From Candidatus Wildermuthbacteria bacterium RIFOXYD1_FULL_50_12 (GTDB lineage: Bacteria > Patescibacteriota > Minisyncoccia > Minisyncoccales > UBA10102), in the NCBI GenBank assembly GCA_001825035.1, contig MHUO01000004.1, positions 7,160 to 39,752 of the forward strand: a DNA stretch of 32,593 nucleotides. Direction: 5' to 3'. The translations under genes and the position numbers were made by a program. How positions within the stretch are numbered: the stretch's first letter is position 1; every line of letters starts with the position of its first letter. Under the pieces are notes generated by a model, which was not told the origin of the DNA, did no database searches, and saw only the letters and a program-made list of their open reading frames with translations. Positions 1,942 to 25,579 of the stretch are shown here, one piece after another.

Positions 1942-3069
1942 ATGGAGACCACTGTGTTAAAAGCACTCCTCAAAGAAGGGCTTGAAATTGCCAATCGCAT
2001 CGCGGTGCGCTCTACTCAGCTTCCCATATTGAGCAATGTATTATTATCCGTGGAAAAAGAAAAAGTGCAGCTTTCTGCGACGGATTTGCAAATAGGCGTT
2101 GTGTACCGGTTTTTGGGAACAACACGCGCGGGAGGGGCAGTGGTATTCCCGGGGCACCCCCTATCTGCATTGCTGTCTATTTCTTCAGGCGAGCAGGTTT
2201 CTCTTTTATCCAAAGATCGGCGCTTGTCGGTTACAACTGGGGAGCATAGAGCAACTCTTCAAGCGCTTGACGCAGAAGAGTTCCCCATTATTCCATCTCC
2301 CCAGGAATCAGAGCTCCTTACGGAGATAGACACTGCAACCGTGTGCCGCGCCTTAAGCCAAGTGGTGGGGATGACGGGTCAAAGTCAAGCAAGGCCAGAA
2401 ATTTCTGGCGTCCTGTTTACGGTAATGGGGAAGACAGCTTCTGCGGCGGCAACTGACAGCTTTCGTTTGGCAGAGCGTAGGTTTTCCCTGGAGAAAGAGA
2501 CGGGCAGAGAGCAAAGCTTCATCTTGCCCGCAAAGACCGTCCGAGAGCTCATCACGATTTTGGGGGAGCGTCCCGGCAGGGCGGAGCTTTACCTCTCTCC
2601 TGCCCAGGTAGCGTTCGTGTACGAAGCAAAAGAAAACCCTTCCCGACTGCGCATCCAGATCGTATCGCGGCTCATTGAAGGGGAATACCCGCGCTATCAA
2701 GAGGTTATCCCCGCCTCTCACAAGACCCTGGTCTCCCTAGGGAAAAACGAATTCCTCAATCATTTGAGAGCCACAGGAATTTTTGCTGGTAAGGCCCAAG
2801 AGGTGCGGCTTCTCGCCGACCCCCGGAAAAAAGCAATAGAATTCTTCTCCGAAAACAAAGAGGCCGGAAGTCACCGCTCGGCGCTGAGGGCCGAGGTAGA
2901 GGGCGATTCTGTGGAGGTGGCGTTCAACTGGAGATTTTTGATGGAAGGATTGGTGCAAATGCGCGGCGAGCGCGTGGAGTTTGCATTAAACGGAGAAGAC
3001 GGAGCCGCTCTTCTGCGCCCCTCAGAGCAGGAAGGGTATCTCTACGTACTCATGCCCATCAAGGCGTAA
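1942..3069 (+). CDS. dnaN: DNA polymerase III beta subunit (sliding clamp)
   Basis: The 375-residue product has the usual clamp length and sequence (METTVLKALLKEGLEIANRI near the start, SATDLQIGV and LPAKTVREL further on). As a ring-shaped dimer it tethers polymerases and repair enzymes to DNA. The C-terminal YLYVLMPIKA matches the conserved C-terminus that borders the protein-binding cleft. It follows oriC directly. The 3' end overlaps the convergent penicillin-binding protein gene by 11 bp, with no room for a terminator between them. Confidence 0.97.
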   Translation: METTVLKALLKEGLEIANRIAVRSTQLPILSNVLLSVEKEKVQLSATDLQIGVVYRFLGTTRAGGAVVFPGHPLSALLSISSGEQVSLLSKDRRLSVTTGEHRATLQALDAEEFPIIPSPQESELLTEIDTATVCRALSQVVGMTGQSQARPEISGVLFTVMGKTASAAATDSFRLAERRFSLEKETGREQSFILPAKTVRELITILGERPGRAELYLSPAQVAFVYEAKENPSRLRIQIVSRLIEGEYPRYQEVIPASHKTLVSLGKNEFLNHLRATGIFAGKAQEVRLLADPRKKAIEFFSENKEAGSHRSALRAEVEGDSVEVAFNWRFLMEGLVQMRGERVEFALNGEDGAALLRPSEQEGYLYVLMPIKA

Positions 3070-10924: not shown

Positions 10925-11403
10925 CGACAAAAATTGAGACGCGTTCATCAGAAGAAACAAAAAAAGTTGCGCGGCAGTTTGTAAAACAACTTTTCGAAAA
11001 GCAACCAAAGGCAGAGAGAGCCCGTGTGATCGCCTTACAAGGCGAGCTCGGAAGCGGCAAGACCACCTTTATCCAAAGCGTTGCTCGCGGCCTCGGCATA
11101 AAAGAGAAAGTCCTTTCTCCCACATTCGTGATTGTAAAATCATACTCCCTTTCCCGTGCGGCATACGGCATACGAAACTTGTATCACGTCGATTGTTATC
11201 GCTTAAAAGGGCCCAAAGAATTAAAAGAGCTCGGATGGGACAGCATCGTGTCCGATCCTCGCAACCTCATCCTCATTGAATGGCCCGAGCGGATCCTAAA
11301 GATTTTACCAGAAGATATCACGATACTGAAATTTCTGATAAAGGGAGAAAAAGAGCGGGAAATAGCAATATGGCGGAAAAACGGAAAATACTCATCGTTA
11401 TAG
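10912..11403 (+). CDS. tsaE: tRNA threonylcarbamoyladenosine biosynthesis ATPase TsaE
   Basis: The 163-residue protein carries the TsaE/YjeE P-loop (LQGELGSGKTTFIQSVARGLG), the switch segment SPTFVIVKSY and the motif HVDCYRL, followed by LILIEWPERI. TsaE works with TsaB and TsaD to make t6A37 on ANN-decoding tRNAs. Its start lies 22 bp from the divergent gene at 10889. The 3' end overlaps polA by 34 bp, indicating an operon. An internal start is possible because the first residues are Lys/Thr rich and poorly conserved. Confidence 0.93.
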   Translation: MKKSTTKIETRSSEETKKVARQFVKQLFEKQPKAERARVIALQGELGSGKTTFIQSVARGLGIKEKVLSPTFVIVKSYSLSRAAYGIRNLYHVDCYRLKGPKELKELGWDSIVSDPRNLILIEWPERILKILPEDITILKFLIKGEKEREIAIWRKNGKYSSL

Positions 11404-13574
11404 ACGCAAACTCTCTGATTCACCGGGCATATCACGCCCTGCCCCCCTTGACGACTCCGAAGGGCGAGGCGGTAAACGCGGTATACGGATTTTTCTTGAT
11501 TTTTTTCAAGATTCTGAAGGAATTCAAACCAGAGTATATCGCCGCCGCCTTTGATGCGCCCGGTCCTACCGAGCGAAAGAAAAAATTTGAAGAATATAAA
11601 GCAAAGCGGCAGAAGGCGCCAGACGAATTGTATGGCCAGATTCCAAAAATACAGGAAGCGCTGGAGACATTAGGTGTTCCTTACTACGCGAAAGAAGGGT
11701 TTGAAGCAGACGATATTATCGGCACCATTGCAAACACTATTCCCAAAAGACAAGCGTATCCGCAAGTAGAGGTCCTCATGATTAGCTCAGATATGGACCT
11801 TGTGCAACTCATCAACGAAAGGACGCGGCTGTATTATGCCAAGGGCTCGCAACAAGCTGCGCTCTATGACAGGGCTGCAGTGAGAAAAAAGTTCGGGGGC
11901 TTGGGGCCCGAGCGGATCACCGATTACAAGGCATTACGCGGTGATCCTTCAGATAACATACCGGGGGTAACCGGCATTGGAGAAAAAACCGCGATTGAAC
12001 TGTTGAACGAATTTGGCTCTTTGGACAATTTGTATAAGCTGCTCGCGGCGGGGGAGTTAGGGGGGAGAGTGAAGCCGAGAACCGCGCAGTTGCTTTGCGA
12101 TTACAAAGAGCAGGCATTTTTAAGCCGACAGTTGGCCACCATTGAGAAAAAGGTGCCTATTGAGATACGGCTGGATGACTTGAGATGGAATGAGGACGCC
12201 TCAAAGATACAAGAAATCCTTGAGCGGTTTGGGTTTCGCTCCCTGGTGCAGAGGCAGGAGACAATCTACGAAAAAATTGAGCAGCTGTATCGCGAGCGCG
12301 TGCTCCCAAGGCAAATCTATGAACTGGAGAAACGGTTGGTTCCTGTGGTGCGGAAGATGGAAGAAAGGGGAATTAAAATAGACAGAAAGTATTTTCAGGA
12401 ACTTCAGCGAGAAATGGAGCAAGCGCTTGCTCGTCTGAGGGGGAATATTCATGCGACAGCCGGCAAGGAGTTTAACGTAAATTCAACCCAGCAACTGTCT
12501 GAAGTATTGTTCAAAGACCTTGCGCTTCCGGTGAAAGGACTGAAAAAAACTCCCAAGGGAGTGATTTCTACTGCTTCTCCTGAGCTGGAAAAGCTGGCGG
12601 GGGTTCACCCTATCATAGAAGATGTTTTGAGGCATCGGGAAATCCAAAAACTTCTCACAACATATGCGAGGCCCCTCCCACTGTTAGCAGACGAGAAAGA
12701 CAGAGTGCATACCCATTTTGACCAGCTGGGGACTGCGACGGGGCGCATTTCCTCATCGGAGCCCAACCTGCAGAATATTCCCAATCAGGGAGAATGGGGA
12801 AAGCGCATTCGCCGAGGGTTTGTTGCAGAGAAAGGGTTTTCATTGGTTTCCTTTGATTACTCTCAAATGGAGTTGCGCATAGCGGCTCACCTGTCAGGGG
12901 ATAGCACCATGCAGAAGTTTTTCCTTGAGGGGGCAGATATCCATACCATGACTGCTTCATCCGTGTTCGGGGTTCCAAGCAAAGACATAAGTCCAGAGAT
13001 GCGATTTCGCGCCAAAGCGCTGAACTTCGGCGTGCTCTACGGCATGGGAGCGCATGGATTTGCCAGGTCTGCCGGTATTCCCTTGGAGGAAGCCCGCGAT
13101 TTCATTGAGCAGTACTTCGCGCGCTTTCCCGGAGTATATGCCTTTATGGAGAAAACGAAAGAATTCGCCAGAACCCACGGATACGTAGAAACCATGTTTG
13201 GAAGGCGGAGATATCTCCCTGACGCAAACTCAAGCACGCCTCAGCTGCGCGCCGCGGCAGAACGCATGGCGCAGAATCATCCCATTCAGGGAAGTTTGGC
13301 AGACATCGTGAAGATGGCAATGGTGAAGATACAAGAGAACCTCGGTTTCTCAGAGGAGGATACCCGCATGCTTTTGCAAATCCACGACGAGTTGCTATTC
13401 GAAATAGCGGATGATAAAGTGGAGGAAAGGGGGCGCTCCATAAAAGAACTCATGGAGCACATAACACCCTTGGTGGTGCCCCTGCAGGTAGATGTAAGGA
13501 AGGGGAAAAACTGGGATGATGTGGAAAAAGTTCTCTTGCCGTCTTCTCTTGTCCCCAAAAGCGAGATAGGATAG
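11370..13574 (+). CDS. polA: DNA polymerase I lacking the 3'-5' exonuclease domain
   Basis: The 734-residue product has a 5'-3' exonuclease at about 1-290 (LIVIDANSLIHRAYHA, GFEADDIIGT, GDPSDNIPGVTGIGEKTA) and then, after a short linker, the polymerase domain (YELEKRLVPVVRKMEERGI onward). Motif A is FDYSQMELR with D496, motif B is RAKALNFGVLYGMG, and motif C is IHDELLF with H672-D673-E674. The proofreading domain of about 190 residues is missing rather than merely inactive, as reported for several reduced genomes. The start MAEKRKILIVIDAN fits the family; the longer ORF upstream is just overlap with tsaE. Confidence 0.96.
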   Translation: MAEKRKILIVIDANSLIHRAYHALPPLTTPKGEAVNAVYGFFLIFFKILKEFKPEYIAAAFDAPGPTERKKKFEEYKAKRQKAPDELYGQIPKIQEALETLGVPYYAKEGFEADDIIGTIANTIPKRQAYPQVEVLMISSDMDLVQLINERTRLYYAKGSQQAALYDRAAVRKKFGGLGPERITDYKALRGDPSDNIPGVTGIGEKTAIELLNEFGSLDNLYKLLAAGELGGRVKPRTAQLLCDYKEQAFLSRQLATIEKKVPIEIRLDDLRWNEDASKIQEILERFGFRSLVQRQETIYEKIEQLYRERVLPRQIYELEKRLVPVVRKMEERGIKIDRKYFQELQREMEQALARLRGNIHATAGKEFNVNSTQQLSEVLFKDLALPVKGLKKTPKGVISTASPELEKLAGVHPIIEDVLRHREIQKLLTTYARPLPLLADEKDRVHTHFDQLGTATGRISSSEPNLQNIPNQGEWGKRIRRGFVAEKGFSLVSFDYSQMELRIAAHLSGDSTMQKFFLEGADIHTMTASSVFGVPSKDISPEMRFRAKALNFGVLYGMGAHGFARSAGIPLEEARDFIEQYFARFPGVYAFMEKTKEFARTHGYVETMFGRRRYLPDANSSTPQLRAAAERMAQNHPIQGSLADIVKMAMVKIQENLGFSEEDTRMLLQIHDELLFEIADDKVEERGRSIKELMEHITPLVVPLQVDVRKGKNWDDVEKVLLPSSLVPKSEIG

Positions 13575-22776: not shown

Positions 22777-23565
22777 ATGGCAGATGAAAAACTTCAGTTA
22801 GAGCGAAAGAAAAAAGAGCGTTACCTTGCCTTGCGCGAGAACCGAAAACATAAAGAGGCGGAGGAACTGTGGCATCGGCTCCGTCAAGGCACCTACATTG
22901 GAGATTTTGTGTACGGTGCAAACGACGGTATTGTTACAACCTTCGCCGTTGTTTCAGCGGCGGCGGGAGCGGCGCTTTCTCCCGGGGTCGTCATTATCTT
23001 GGGTTTTGCGAATTTGTTGGCAGATGGGTTCTCCATGGGGGCTTCAAACTTCCTTTCTTTGCGATCGGGGAAAGAGTTCGTGCGGATGCAGAGGGGGAAA
23101 GAAGAATGGGAAGTGGAGAATTTTCCTGAAATTGAGAAAGAAGAAATACGGGATATTCTGCGTACGTGGAGTGTGCCGCGGCAATACATCGAGCCATCTA
23201 CAGCAGCAATTGTGCGGGATAAGAAACGGTGGGTTGATTTGATGATGAGAGAGGAGCTGCATATCATAGAGGAAGATGCGGCGAATCCGATAAAACACGC
23301 AATGGCAACTTTCCTTGCATTTCTCGCGGCCGGCGCAGTCCCGCTTGTTCCCTATCTGTTTGCATTTTCTCCGTATATTCAATTTGAGCTCGCCACTTTT
23401 TTCGCCGCCATCGCGTTCTTCGCGGTGGGGGCTTCACGCACCTTGGTTACGGGAGCGAACCCATGGAGGGCTGGCCTTGAAATTCTCCTGGTGGGAGGAT
23501 TTGCGGCCACGGTTGCTTATGGTGCAGGATGGGGAGTGAAAACGTTATTCGGCATAGCGATATAA
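22777..23565 (+). CDS. VIT1/CCC1 family metal transporter
   Basis: The 262-residue protein has a charged N-terminal helix (LERKKKERYLALRENRKHKE) and then the family signature YGANDGIVTTFAVVSAAAGA. The second helix is GFANLLADGFSMGASNFLS. A cytoplasmic Glu-rich region (EEWEVENFPEIEKEEIRDIL, with further Glu around MREELHIIEED) matches the metal-binding domain, followed by three more helices. Members export Fe2+ or Mn2+ from the cytosol. The downstream nuclease gene starts 5 bp after this stop. Confidence 0.92.
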   Translation: MADEKLQLERKKKERYLALRENRKHKEAEELWHRLRQGTYIGDFVYGANDGIVTTFAVVSAAAGAALSPGVVIILGFANLLADGFSMGASNFLSLRSGKEFVRMQRGKEEWEVENFPEIEKEEIRDILRTWSVPRQYIEPSTAAIVRDKKRWVDLMMREELHIIEEDAANPIKHAMATFLAFLAAGAVPLVPYLFAFSPYIQFELATFFAAIAFFAVGASRTLVTGANPWRAGLEILLVGGFAATVAYGAGWGVKTLFGIAI

Positions 23566-23570
23566 TCAGT

Positions 23571-24320
23571 ATGACCGCTGATTTGTTTAAAGAAAAATTC
23601 GGATACGAGATTGAAGGCGTGTGGTTTCCTCGCGTAACCTCCATTACTTCGCCCCTGCAGAAAAAGTGGTGGGGGATGAGAAGGGCGGCAGAGTGGGGCA
23701 CGCTTATTCATGAAACCGTGGAGGATATGTTGAGGGGAGAAAACGTAAGCCCCGATGCCAAGTGCGCAGTGGCCATTGAAACGTTTCTGCGCTGGCAGAG
23801 CGAGTACCCAATGCGCATTGCAGATCCTGTCAACGATATTGAAAAAAGAGTATGGGATCCGGAGTACGGATATGCCGGAACCGTAGATATTATTGCGGAA
23901 GTGGAAGGAGTGCGCGGCATTATTGATGTGAAAACGAGCACCGCGGTGGTAAAAGAGCACTATTTGCAGACGGCGGCGTATTTATATGCCTACAACAAGA
24001 CAAGCGGGACAAATCGCCCCTGCCAAACGCGCTGGATCTTGCGTATAGACCAGTATCAAGAATGCAGGGGGTGTTTGGCAAAACTTCGGATAAAGTATGG
24101 GTCTCAAAGTATAAACGGGGGGAAATCCGCCAATTGGCGGATATGCAATCATCAGTGGGGTGCCGCGAAAGGAGAAATTGAGTTTCAGGAGCTCAAAGGG
24201 TACGAGCGCGACTTAGCCCTGTTTTTTGATTTAAAAGAGCGGTGGGAGTGGGCGAACAAAGAATGGCTTGCCCGAATTCCCAATTATGAGAAAAATATTC
24301 GTCAGCATGCGCTATTATGA
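23571..24320 (+). CDS. PD-(D/E)XK superfamily nuclease (RecB-like)
   Basis: The 249-residue protein has a RecB-type nuclease core: H47 in GTLIHETVED, D106 in AGTVDIIAE, D119-x-K121 in IIDVKTS, and Q133 in YLQTAAYLYAY. A Cys-containing insert follows (ECRGCLAKLR and ICNHQW), possibly metal binding. The ORF is open 14 codons further up within the transporter gene, but ATG 23571 lies 4 nt after a TATAAT (23561-23566) and is preferred. The stop overlaps the start of the endonuclease Q-like gene by 4 bp, so the two are probably made together. Likely a DNA exonuclease; no helicase is adjacent. Confidence 0.88.
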   Translation: MTADLFKEKFGYEIEGVWFPRVTSITSPLQKKWWGMRRAAEWGTLIHETVEDMLRGENVSPDAKCAVAIETFLRWQSEYPMRIADPVNDIEKRVWDPEYGYAGTVDIIAEVEGVRGIIDVKTSTAVVKEHYLQTAAYLYAYNKTSGTNRPCQTRWILRIDQYQECRGCLAKLRIKYGSQSINGGKSANWRICNHQWGAAKGEIEFQELKGYERDLALFFDLKERWEWANKEWLARIPNYEKNIRQHALL

Positions 24321-25579
24321 AATTCGTAGGGGACTTTCACATCCACTCGCACTTTTCGAGGGCAACCTCCAAAGAATTGACCATTCCCAATCTTGACCGC
24401 TGGGCTGCCGTGAAAGGGATCACGGTGATGGGCACTGGTGACTTTACGTATCCTGCGTGGGTGCAGGAGATGAAGCAGAATCTGGAGCTGGCCGAAGAAG
24501 GGTTGTATAAGCTGAAGGGGAAAGATACGCCCACGCGATTTCTGCTGTCGAGCGAAATCAGTTGCATTTACAGCAAAGGGGGAGCCGTACGAAGAATCCA
24601 TTTAGTTGTGTTGGCTCCTTCGTTTGAAATCGTGGAGAAAATCAACGCTCATCTGGGGGTACGCGGAAACCTAAAATCAGACGGCAGGCCCATCTTGGGC
24701 ATTGATGCCAAAGAAATCGTAAAAATAGCTCTCGACGCCTCCCCAGAGTGCATGGTGATTCCGGCGCACGCCTGGACCCCGTGGTTTTCGGTGTTTGGGT
24801 CAAAATCGGGATTCAACTCTTTGGGAGAATGCTTTGACGAGTACACCAAATATATCTACGCAATTGAGACGGGCCTATCTTCGGATCCCGCAATGAACTG
24901 GCGTCTATCGGCGCTTGATTCCATCGCGCTCATTTCAAATTCAGACAGCCATTCGCTCGCAAAAATTGGGAGAGAAGCGAACGTATTTGATACAGAACTC
25001 AGCTATGCTGGCATCGCAGAGGCTATTCGCGCAAAAGACCCAAAGAAGTTCCTTTTTACCGTGGAGTTTTTTCCGGAAGAAGGAAAGTATCATTACGACG
25101 GCCACCGGCTTTGCGGGGTGAGCATGCAGCCGGAAGAATCAAAGCGCCACAACAATATCTGCCCCAAATGCAAAAGGCCCCTAACGATTGGCGTTCTGAA
25201 CCGCGTGGCAGAACTTGCAGATCGGCCCGCCTTTGATAAATCCTCGGCGGGCAAGCCCGGAGGGGCGATTCCATTTAAGAGCTTGATCCCATTGGAAGAA
25301 ATTATCGCGGACGCTTTAGGTATTGGCGTAATTTCCAAAAGAGTGAGGGACGAATACGAAAAGCTGGTAGGCGCTTTGGGCAGCGAGTTTGAGGTTTTGC
25401 TCAATGCAGATCAATCATCTCTCCAATCTGCGACCTTGCCAGAAATCGCAGAAGGAATTATGCGAGTAAGGGAAGGAAGGGTGCATATTGAGCCAGGGTA
25501 CGACGGAGAATACGGCAAAATCAAAATCTTTCAGGAGGGAGAACAGCAAGCCCTCACCACGCAAAAAAGTTTATTTTAG
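24317..25579 (+). CDS. Endonuclease Q-like PHP-domain DNA repair nuclease
   Basis: A 420-residue protein with a PHP phosphoesterase domain: D6-x-H8-x-H10 in GDFHIHSHFSRATS, Glu in LSSEISCIYS, His in IPAHAWTPW, and SNSDSHSLAKIGREAN. A zinc-binding segment follows (HRLCGVSM, then CPKCKRPLTIGVLNRVAELA). Length and order match EndoQ, first described in Thermococcales and later in some bacteria, which cuts 5' of deaminated bases and abasic sites. Related proteins are often annotated as a UvrD-like helicase, but no helicase motif is present here. The protein ends TTQKSLF, which fits the clamp-binding motif Qx(S/D)LF. It overlaps the nuclease gene upstream. Confidence 0.87.
   Translation: MKFVGDFHIHSHFSRATSKELTIPNLDRWAAVKGITVMGTGDFTYPAWVQEMKQNLELAEEGLYKLKGKDTPTRFLLSSEISCIYSKGGAVRRIHLVVLAPSFEIVEKINAHLGVRGNLKSDGRPILGIDAKEIVKIALDASPECMVIPAHAWTPWFSVFGSKSGFNSLGECFDEYTKYIYAIETGLSSDPAMNWRLSALDSIALISNSDSHSLAKIGREANVFDTELSYAGIAEAIRAKDPKKFLFTVEFFPEEGKYHYDGHRLCGVSMQPEESKRHNNICPKCKRPLTIGVLNRVAELADRPAFDKSSAGKPGGAIPFKSLIPLEEIIADALGIGVISKRVRDEYEKLVGALGSEFEVLLNADQSSLQSATLPEIAEGIMRVREGRVHIEPGYDGEYGKIKIFQEGEQQALTTQKSLF

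Follow-up and report, generated by a model that had tools for sequence, protein, structure and literature searches.

TkoEndoQ (TK0887), an archaeal endonuclease Q (EndoQ), binds PCNA via a C-terminal PIP box with a KD of 55 nM (Shiraishi et al. 2016, PMC4858679), which bears out the statement in a sequence-only reading of the present locus that archaeal EndoQ binds PCNA. TkoEndoQ is stimulated by PCNA, and deletion of the PIP box abolishes both binding and stimulation (PMC4858679). Bacterial EndoQ homologues were stated in 2016 to have consensus beta-clamp motifs at their C-termini (Shiraishi, PMC4858679), and a functional bacterial EndoQ is known from Bacillus pumilus (cited in PMC6202378). 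No published test of the EndoQ–beta clamp interaction was found in the searchable literature. The idea of a clamp tail on bacterial EndoQ has been known since 2016 and is extended here to a new lineage; the support added to that prediction is the match to DnaE, the rule relating tail type to domain, the clamp pocket and the replacement of UDG. The beta-clamp motif has the consensus QL[S/D]LF, of which positions 1, 4 and 5 are the most important (PMC3919608), and position 2 is tolerant of substitution (PMC11139829). We consider it about 90% probable, from sequence comparison, that the tail QKSLF of the bacterial EndoQ described here docks in the DnaN pocket and tethers the nuclease for the repair of deaminated bases.

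The EndoQ gene and its product

The window (the whole stretch of DNA analysed, 32,593 nucleotides) carries the single EndoQ copy of a genome of 677 kb that is 98.8% complete:

24317..25579, + strand: EndoQ-like endonuclease gene, 420 aa (PfuEndoQ match, TIGR00375 match, AF2 model compared with 5zb8)

Residues 4–407 of the protein align with residues 4–385 of PfuEndoQ (PF1551), a sequence similarity over nearly the full length (E 3e-52). The NCBIfam hypothetical equivalog TIGR00375 matches with 186.9 bits (E 7e-55), below its curated cut-off of 326.6 bits, which is attained by only two of the three control genomes with a match. As the score is under the cut-off, the equivalog assignment was dropped and the protein is classed only as EndoQ. 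The AlphaFold2 (AF2) model, calculated from a 34-sequence alignment, has a mean pLDDT of 93.8 (94 in the core), and its top PDB matches in Foldseek are the PfuEndoQ structures 5zb8 and 7k30 (TM about 0.84/0.89). The catalytic Zn in PfuEndoQ is coordinated by E76, H84 and H139 (PMC8307549); these correspond to E80, H95 and H151 of the window protein, which are invariant in the 34 sequences. In the zinc-finger region (CxxC...CxxC in PfuEndoQ), three of the four Cys are retained, the first being His in the window protein. Sequence and predicted fold identify the window protein as a bacterial EndoQ, with the PfuEndoQ fold and the catalytic Zn residues retained; both are shared with the archaeal enzymes PfuEndoQ and TkoEndoQ. 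It joins the B. pumilus enzyme and the homologues from B. subtilis and Desulfovibrio as a bacterial EndoQ but, unlike these, comes from a Patescibacteria-like lineage with reduced genomes. Of 120 related genomes, counting that of the window, 101 have EndoQ.

The C-terminal tail and the clamp

The open reading frame (24317–25579, + strand) ends in GEQQALTTQKSLF followed by the stop, and the C-terminal stretch reads GYDGEYGKIKIFQEGEQQALTTQKSLF. Two segments can be distinguished:

25532..25561, + strand: variable, probably flexible linker QEGEQQALTT, residues 406–415 (column entropy in 98 tails; drop in pLDDT)
25562..25576, + strand: predicted C-terminal beta-clamp-binding motif QKSLF, residues 416–420 (conservation; same motif class in DnaE)

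The motif is encoded by CAA (25562–25564, Q), AAA (25565–25567, K), AGT (25568–25570, S), TTA (25571–25573, L) and TTT (25574–25576, F), with the stop TAG at 25577–25579. The sequence-only reading had recognised the ending QKSLF and its fit to the clamp consensus, which the translation of the reading frame confirms; it had placed the motif at 25565–25579, one codon (3 bases) late, missing the Q codon and including the stop. Q416, L419 and F420 occupy the key positions 1, 4 and 5. Position 2 is Lys and the preferred aliphatic residue is absent. The protein stops at +4 from the Gln and does not have the form of a PIP box (Qxxhxxaa, aromatic at +6/+7 from Q). Its placement at the C-terminus has parallels in Pol II and Pol IV. 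Compared with the canonical motif (QL[S/D]LF or QxxLF in DnaE/PolC, Pol II and others), it shares Q1, L4, F5 and the flexible location and differs at position 2, where the canonical residue is aliphatic and both the window EndoQ and the DnaE of the same genome have Lys.

Pentapeptide motifs are short, and such an ending could arise at a single C-terminus by chance. A DNA-level scan for Q-x-[S/T/R/C/W]-[L/F]-F-stop across all 677 kb of the genome gave five matches; EndoQ is the only long open reading frame among them, the other four being open frames of 8–64 codons. Within the same order, an exact terminal QxxL[F/L/I] is present in 89 of 98 complete EndoQ C-termini and, in five more, the motif lies no more than four residues from the end. 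Together these counts make a chance match scarcely credible. Absence from close homologues had been named beforehand as one observation that would speak against the clamp motif; the two nearest relatives (78% identity overall) have QKSLF unchanged. Four of the 98 are without the motif, so it is not strictly essential; one of these has an in-frame stop upstream of a still-encoded QKALL. With columns numbered back from the C-terminal end and no selection of sequences, the entropy is 0.58 bits for Q (−5) and 0.63 bits for L (−2) as compared to 1.8–3.5 bits for the linker (−6 to −15). All six Leu codons and both Gln codons occur in the tails, so the tail is kept as protein sequence and not as DNA. 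The pLDDT of the AF2 model averages 58 for residues 411–420 and is below 50 for residues 418–420; on the model, the tail is in a flexible, disordered and accessible location.

In the replicase DnaE of the window genome, NGQKGLFDAHF precedes the OB domain, where the clamp-binding site usually lies (domain order from PMC3919608). QxxLF is found at this site in all 30 DnaE compared (that of the window genome plus 29 from related genomes), as QKGLF (9), QRGLF (5), QQSLF (5), QKSLF (5) and single variants. Position 2 of the lineage's DnaE peptide is mostly Lys, Arg or Gln. Since these peptides are QxxLF and some are exactly QKSLF, the EndoQ tail looks like the clamp peptide of its own lineage, down to the Lys, an unusual residue at position 2.

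Peptides at the C-terminus often act as recognition sites, and a conserved end might instead serve as a degradation signal, contact another protein or fold back onto the enzyme. The model gives the tail no confident structure (pLDDT under 50 at 418–420). Positions 1, 4 and 5 of the tail fit the clamp motif, DnaE has the same peptide, and the tail type tracks the clamp of the domain (below), which leaves a role of this other kind highly unlikely. Docking on the clamp, the reading that we prefer, has its presumed partner in the window:

1942..3069, + strand: dnaN, beta sliding clamp, presumed partner (TIGR00663, E 2e-59; pocket mapped to E. coli DnaN)

Residue mapping, with the list of pocket residues taken from PMC11139829, shows the peptide pocket to be mostly conserved with respect to E. 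coli DnaN; R151, T171, R175, L176, P250, V255, V369, M371, N329 and P372 are retained. Three changes from E. coli are lineage-wide: H175 to F, R246 to E/D and V344 to D/E (F, E and D in the window DnaN). We speculate that Lys at position 2 could be favoured by an acidic residue close to its site on the clamp, in a lineage that varies little. The sequence-only reading had pointed to dnaN lying in the same window. The gene is indeed present, about 21 kb from EndoQ, and the spacing is 21–30 kb in the family and 26–84 kb in six other relatives with both genes on one contig. Inherited gene order around the origin would produce such mostly kept spacing; the distance reflects conserved gene order, is no evidence by itself and was dropped as an indication of a link with EndoQ.

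Archaeal and bacterial tails

We took 80 named EndoQ loci from genome contigs, 78 of them with complete C-termini; Firmicutes tails lie outside this comparison, and the motif of B. subtilis rests on PMC4858679. In archaeal and window EndoQ the clamp peptide is at the same place, after the motif PG[YG][DG]G.YG. Most archaeal tails are PIP boxes (QRSLLDF, QKSLFEF, QQLNLADFW and similar); Methanomicrobiales EndoQ stops before any tail, and a few other archaeal ends are degenerate. The archaeal tails place an aromatic residue at +6 for PCNA (QRSITEFL, QRTLLQYI, QKSLFEF), whereas in the window protein F at +4 is the last residue, as in the beta-clamp form. Bacterial tails are mostly QxxLF (Omnitrophota, Caldifarciminota, Bipolaricaulota, Thermodesulfobacteriota, Sungbacteria, Shapirobacteria and others). 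In the 99-row tree set, a strict classifier assigned 33 bacterial tails to the beta type and 2 to the PIP type, and 0 and 39 archaeal tails, respectively (Fisher p 5e-19, relatedness ignored). The strict version was used for the counts, a looser one having mislabelled several bacterial QLxLF ends as PIP. Of the two bacterial PIP calls, one (L183) is a misread QMKLF and the other (L176, Peregrinibacteria) is QKTLFSFF, a tail compatible with both the beta-clamp and the PCNA PIP type. With PIP tails in archaea and QxxLF tails in bacteria, the type of EndoQ tail, as read from sequence, follows the clamp of the host domain. On this reading, one repair enzyme carries a predicted clamp hook in both domains, suited in each to the host's own clamp.

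The EndoQ tree, built without the tails, shows a single change of domain. The bacterial sequences form one group (support 90), neighboured by DPANN and Bathyarchaeota sequences, and the named EndoQ closest to the window protein is from Sungbacteria. A transfer of EndoQ from archaea to bacteria is likely, its direction being taken from the midpoint root. As the bacterial EndoQs are one group among PIP-bearing archaeal ones, one inherited PIP tail was probably converted into a beta-clamp tail, again with the direction set by the midpoint root. A bacterial tail parallel to the archaeal one had been suggested beforehand; the beta-clamp-type tail stands, and the tree favours conversion of a single inherited tail over a parallel solution. 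The archaeal contact between PIP box and PCNA would have its proposed bacterial counterpart in QKSLF and DnaN, and the docking peptide appears to have been re-targeted by few terminal residues. A mobile-element origin is unsupported, as EndoQ was not found in plasmids, phages or IMG/VR viral contigs.

The same tree could be read as saying that the tail is a shortened archaeal PIP relic, inherited and of no further importance in bacteria; archaeal QKSLFEF and bacterial QKSLF are only two end residues apart. A relic is expected to decay at the rate of the linker, yet the linker varies and Q, L and F do not, the motif is identical in two close relatives with 78% overall identity, and F is the very last bacterial residue, which is what the beta-clamp motif requires. 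We regard an inert relic as highly improbable.

Repair context and proposed mechanism

Profile searches for UDG (PF03167) and EndoV (PF04493) gave no match in the 98.8%-complete window genome; the same searches find UDG in 13 and EndoV in 6 of 14 control genomes. Among the 120 genomes, UDG is present in 16 of 19 without EndoQ and in 37 of 101 with EndoQ (Fisher p 2e-4, relatedness ignored). In these relatives, one of EndoQ and UDG tends to stand in for the other. This complementarity, together with the lack of detectable UDG and EndoV, suggests that the repair of uracil and hypoxanthine in this genome is probably initiated mainly by EndoQ. The locus indicates that the repair of deaminated DNA in this bacterial lineage probably begins with an enzyme that nicks directly, not with a glycosylase.

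Docking of the tail on the clamp would then work as follows. QKSLF, on its short flexible linker, would insert into the peptide-binding pocket of DnaN, the same pocket that DnaE would use via QKGLF. This would tether, and probably stimulate, EndoQ on clamp-loaded DNA, where the enzyme would nick 5′ of AP sites and of the deaminated bases uracil and hypoxanthine. Either PolA, with its 5′ nuclease, or DnaE would take over the nick as polymerase, followed by ligase. Binding, stimulation and hand-over at the clamp are inferred by us from sequence. For finishing the repair after the EndoQ nick, the window offers a candidate:

11280..13574, + strand: PolA, with 5′ nuclease and polymerase domains (PF00476, PF02739, PF01367)

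Its 5′ nuclease domain could remove the damaged end. Several points count against clamp docking: the Lys at position 2 and a DnaN pocket that differs from E. coli at H175, R246 and V344; the four of 98 relatives without the motif; the 37 of 101 EndoQ-bearing relatives that also have UDG; and the general fact that short motifs can persist for other reasons.

Directly upstream of EndoQ is a second nuclease gene:

23529..24320, + strand: PD-(D/E)XK nuclease, Cas4/RecB-like (PF12705, E 5e-5)

Its stop overlaps the EndoQ start by 4 bases (ATGA). The gene is present in all 25 family genomes checked, adjoins or lies close upstream of EndoQ in most family members and is rare elsewhere in the order. 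It also occurs in two relatives without EndoQ, so a function shared by the two nucleases is only possible.

A wider and tentative reading, which we would rate as doubtful, joins these elements. A clamp-tethered EndoQ, in one operon with the PD-(D/E)XK nuclease, would have replaced UDG-initiated base excision repair in the lineage, after one transfer from archaea in which the PIP tail was trimmed to QxxLF and its target changed from PCNA to the beta clamp. Clamp and ligands would have co-adapted, the former with acidic residues at positions 246 and 344 (E. coli numbering) and the latter with Lys, Arg or Gln at position 2 in DnaE and mostly Lys in EndoQ.

The EndoQ proteins of nine relatives (L093–L101; genomes G012, G001, G006, G002, G085, G070, G082, G045 and G116) contain inteins of 403–441 aa. 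The insertion point is immediately C-terminal to the catalytic His (PAH^), the first intein residue is Cys and the intein ends HN|C; the intein-free window EndoQ has Ala at the position of the Cys. The single intein that was scanned contains a LAGLIDADG-like domain and has an Intein_splicing match (E 2e-8, just below the curated cut-off). In Desulfonatronospira (L178), a UvrD/Rep-type helicase and EndoQ are fused in one open reading frame of 1031 aa, which ends VLKLF.
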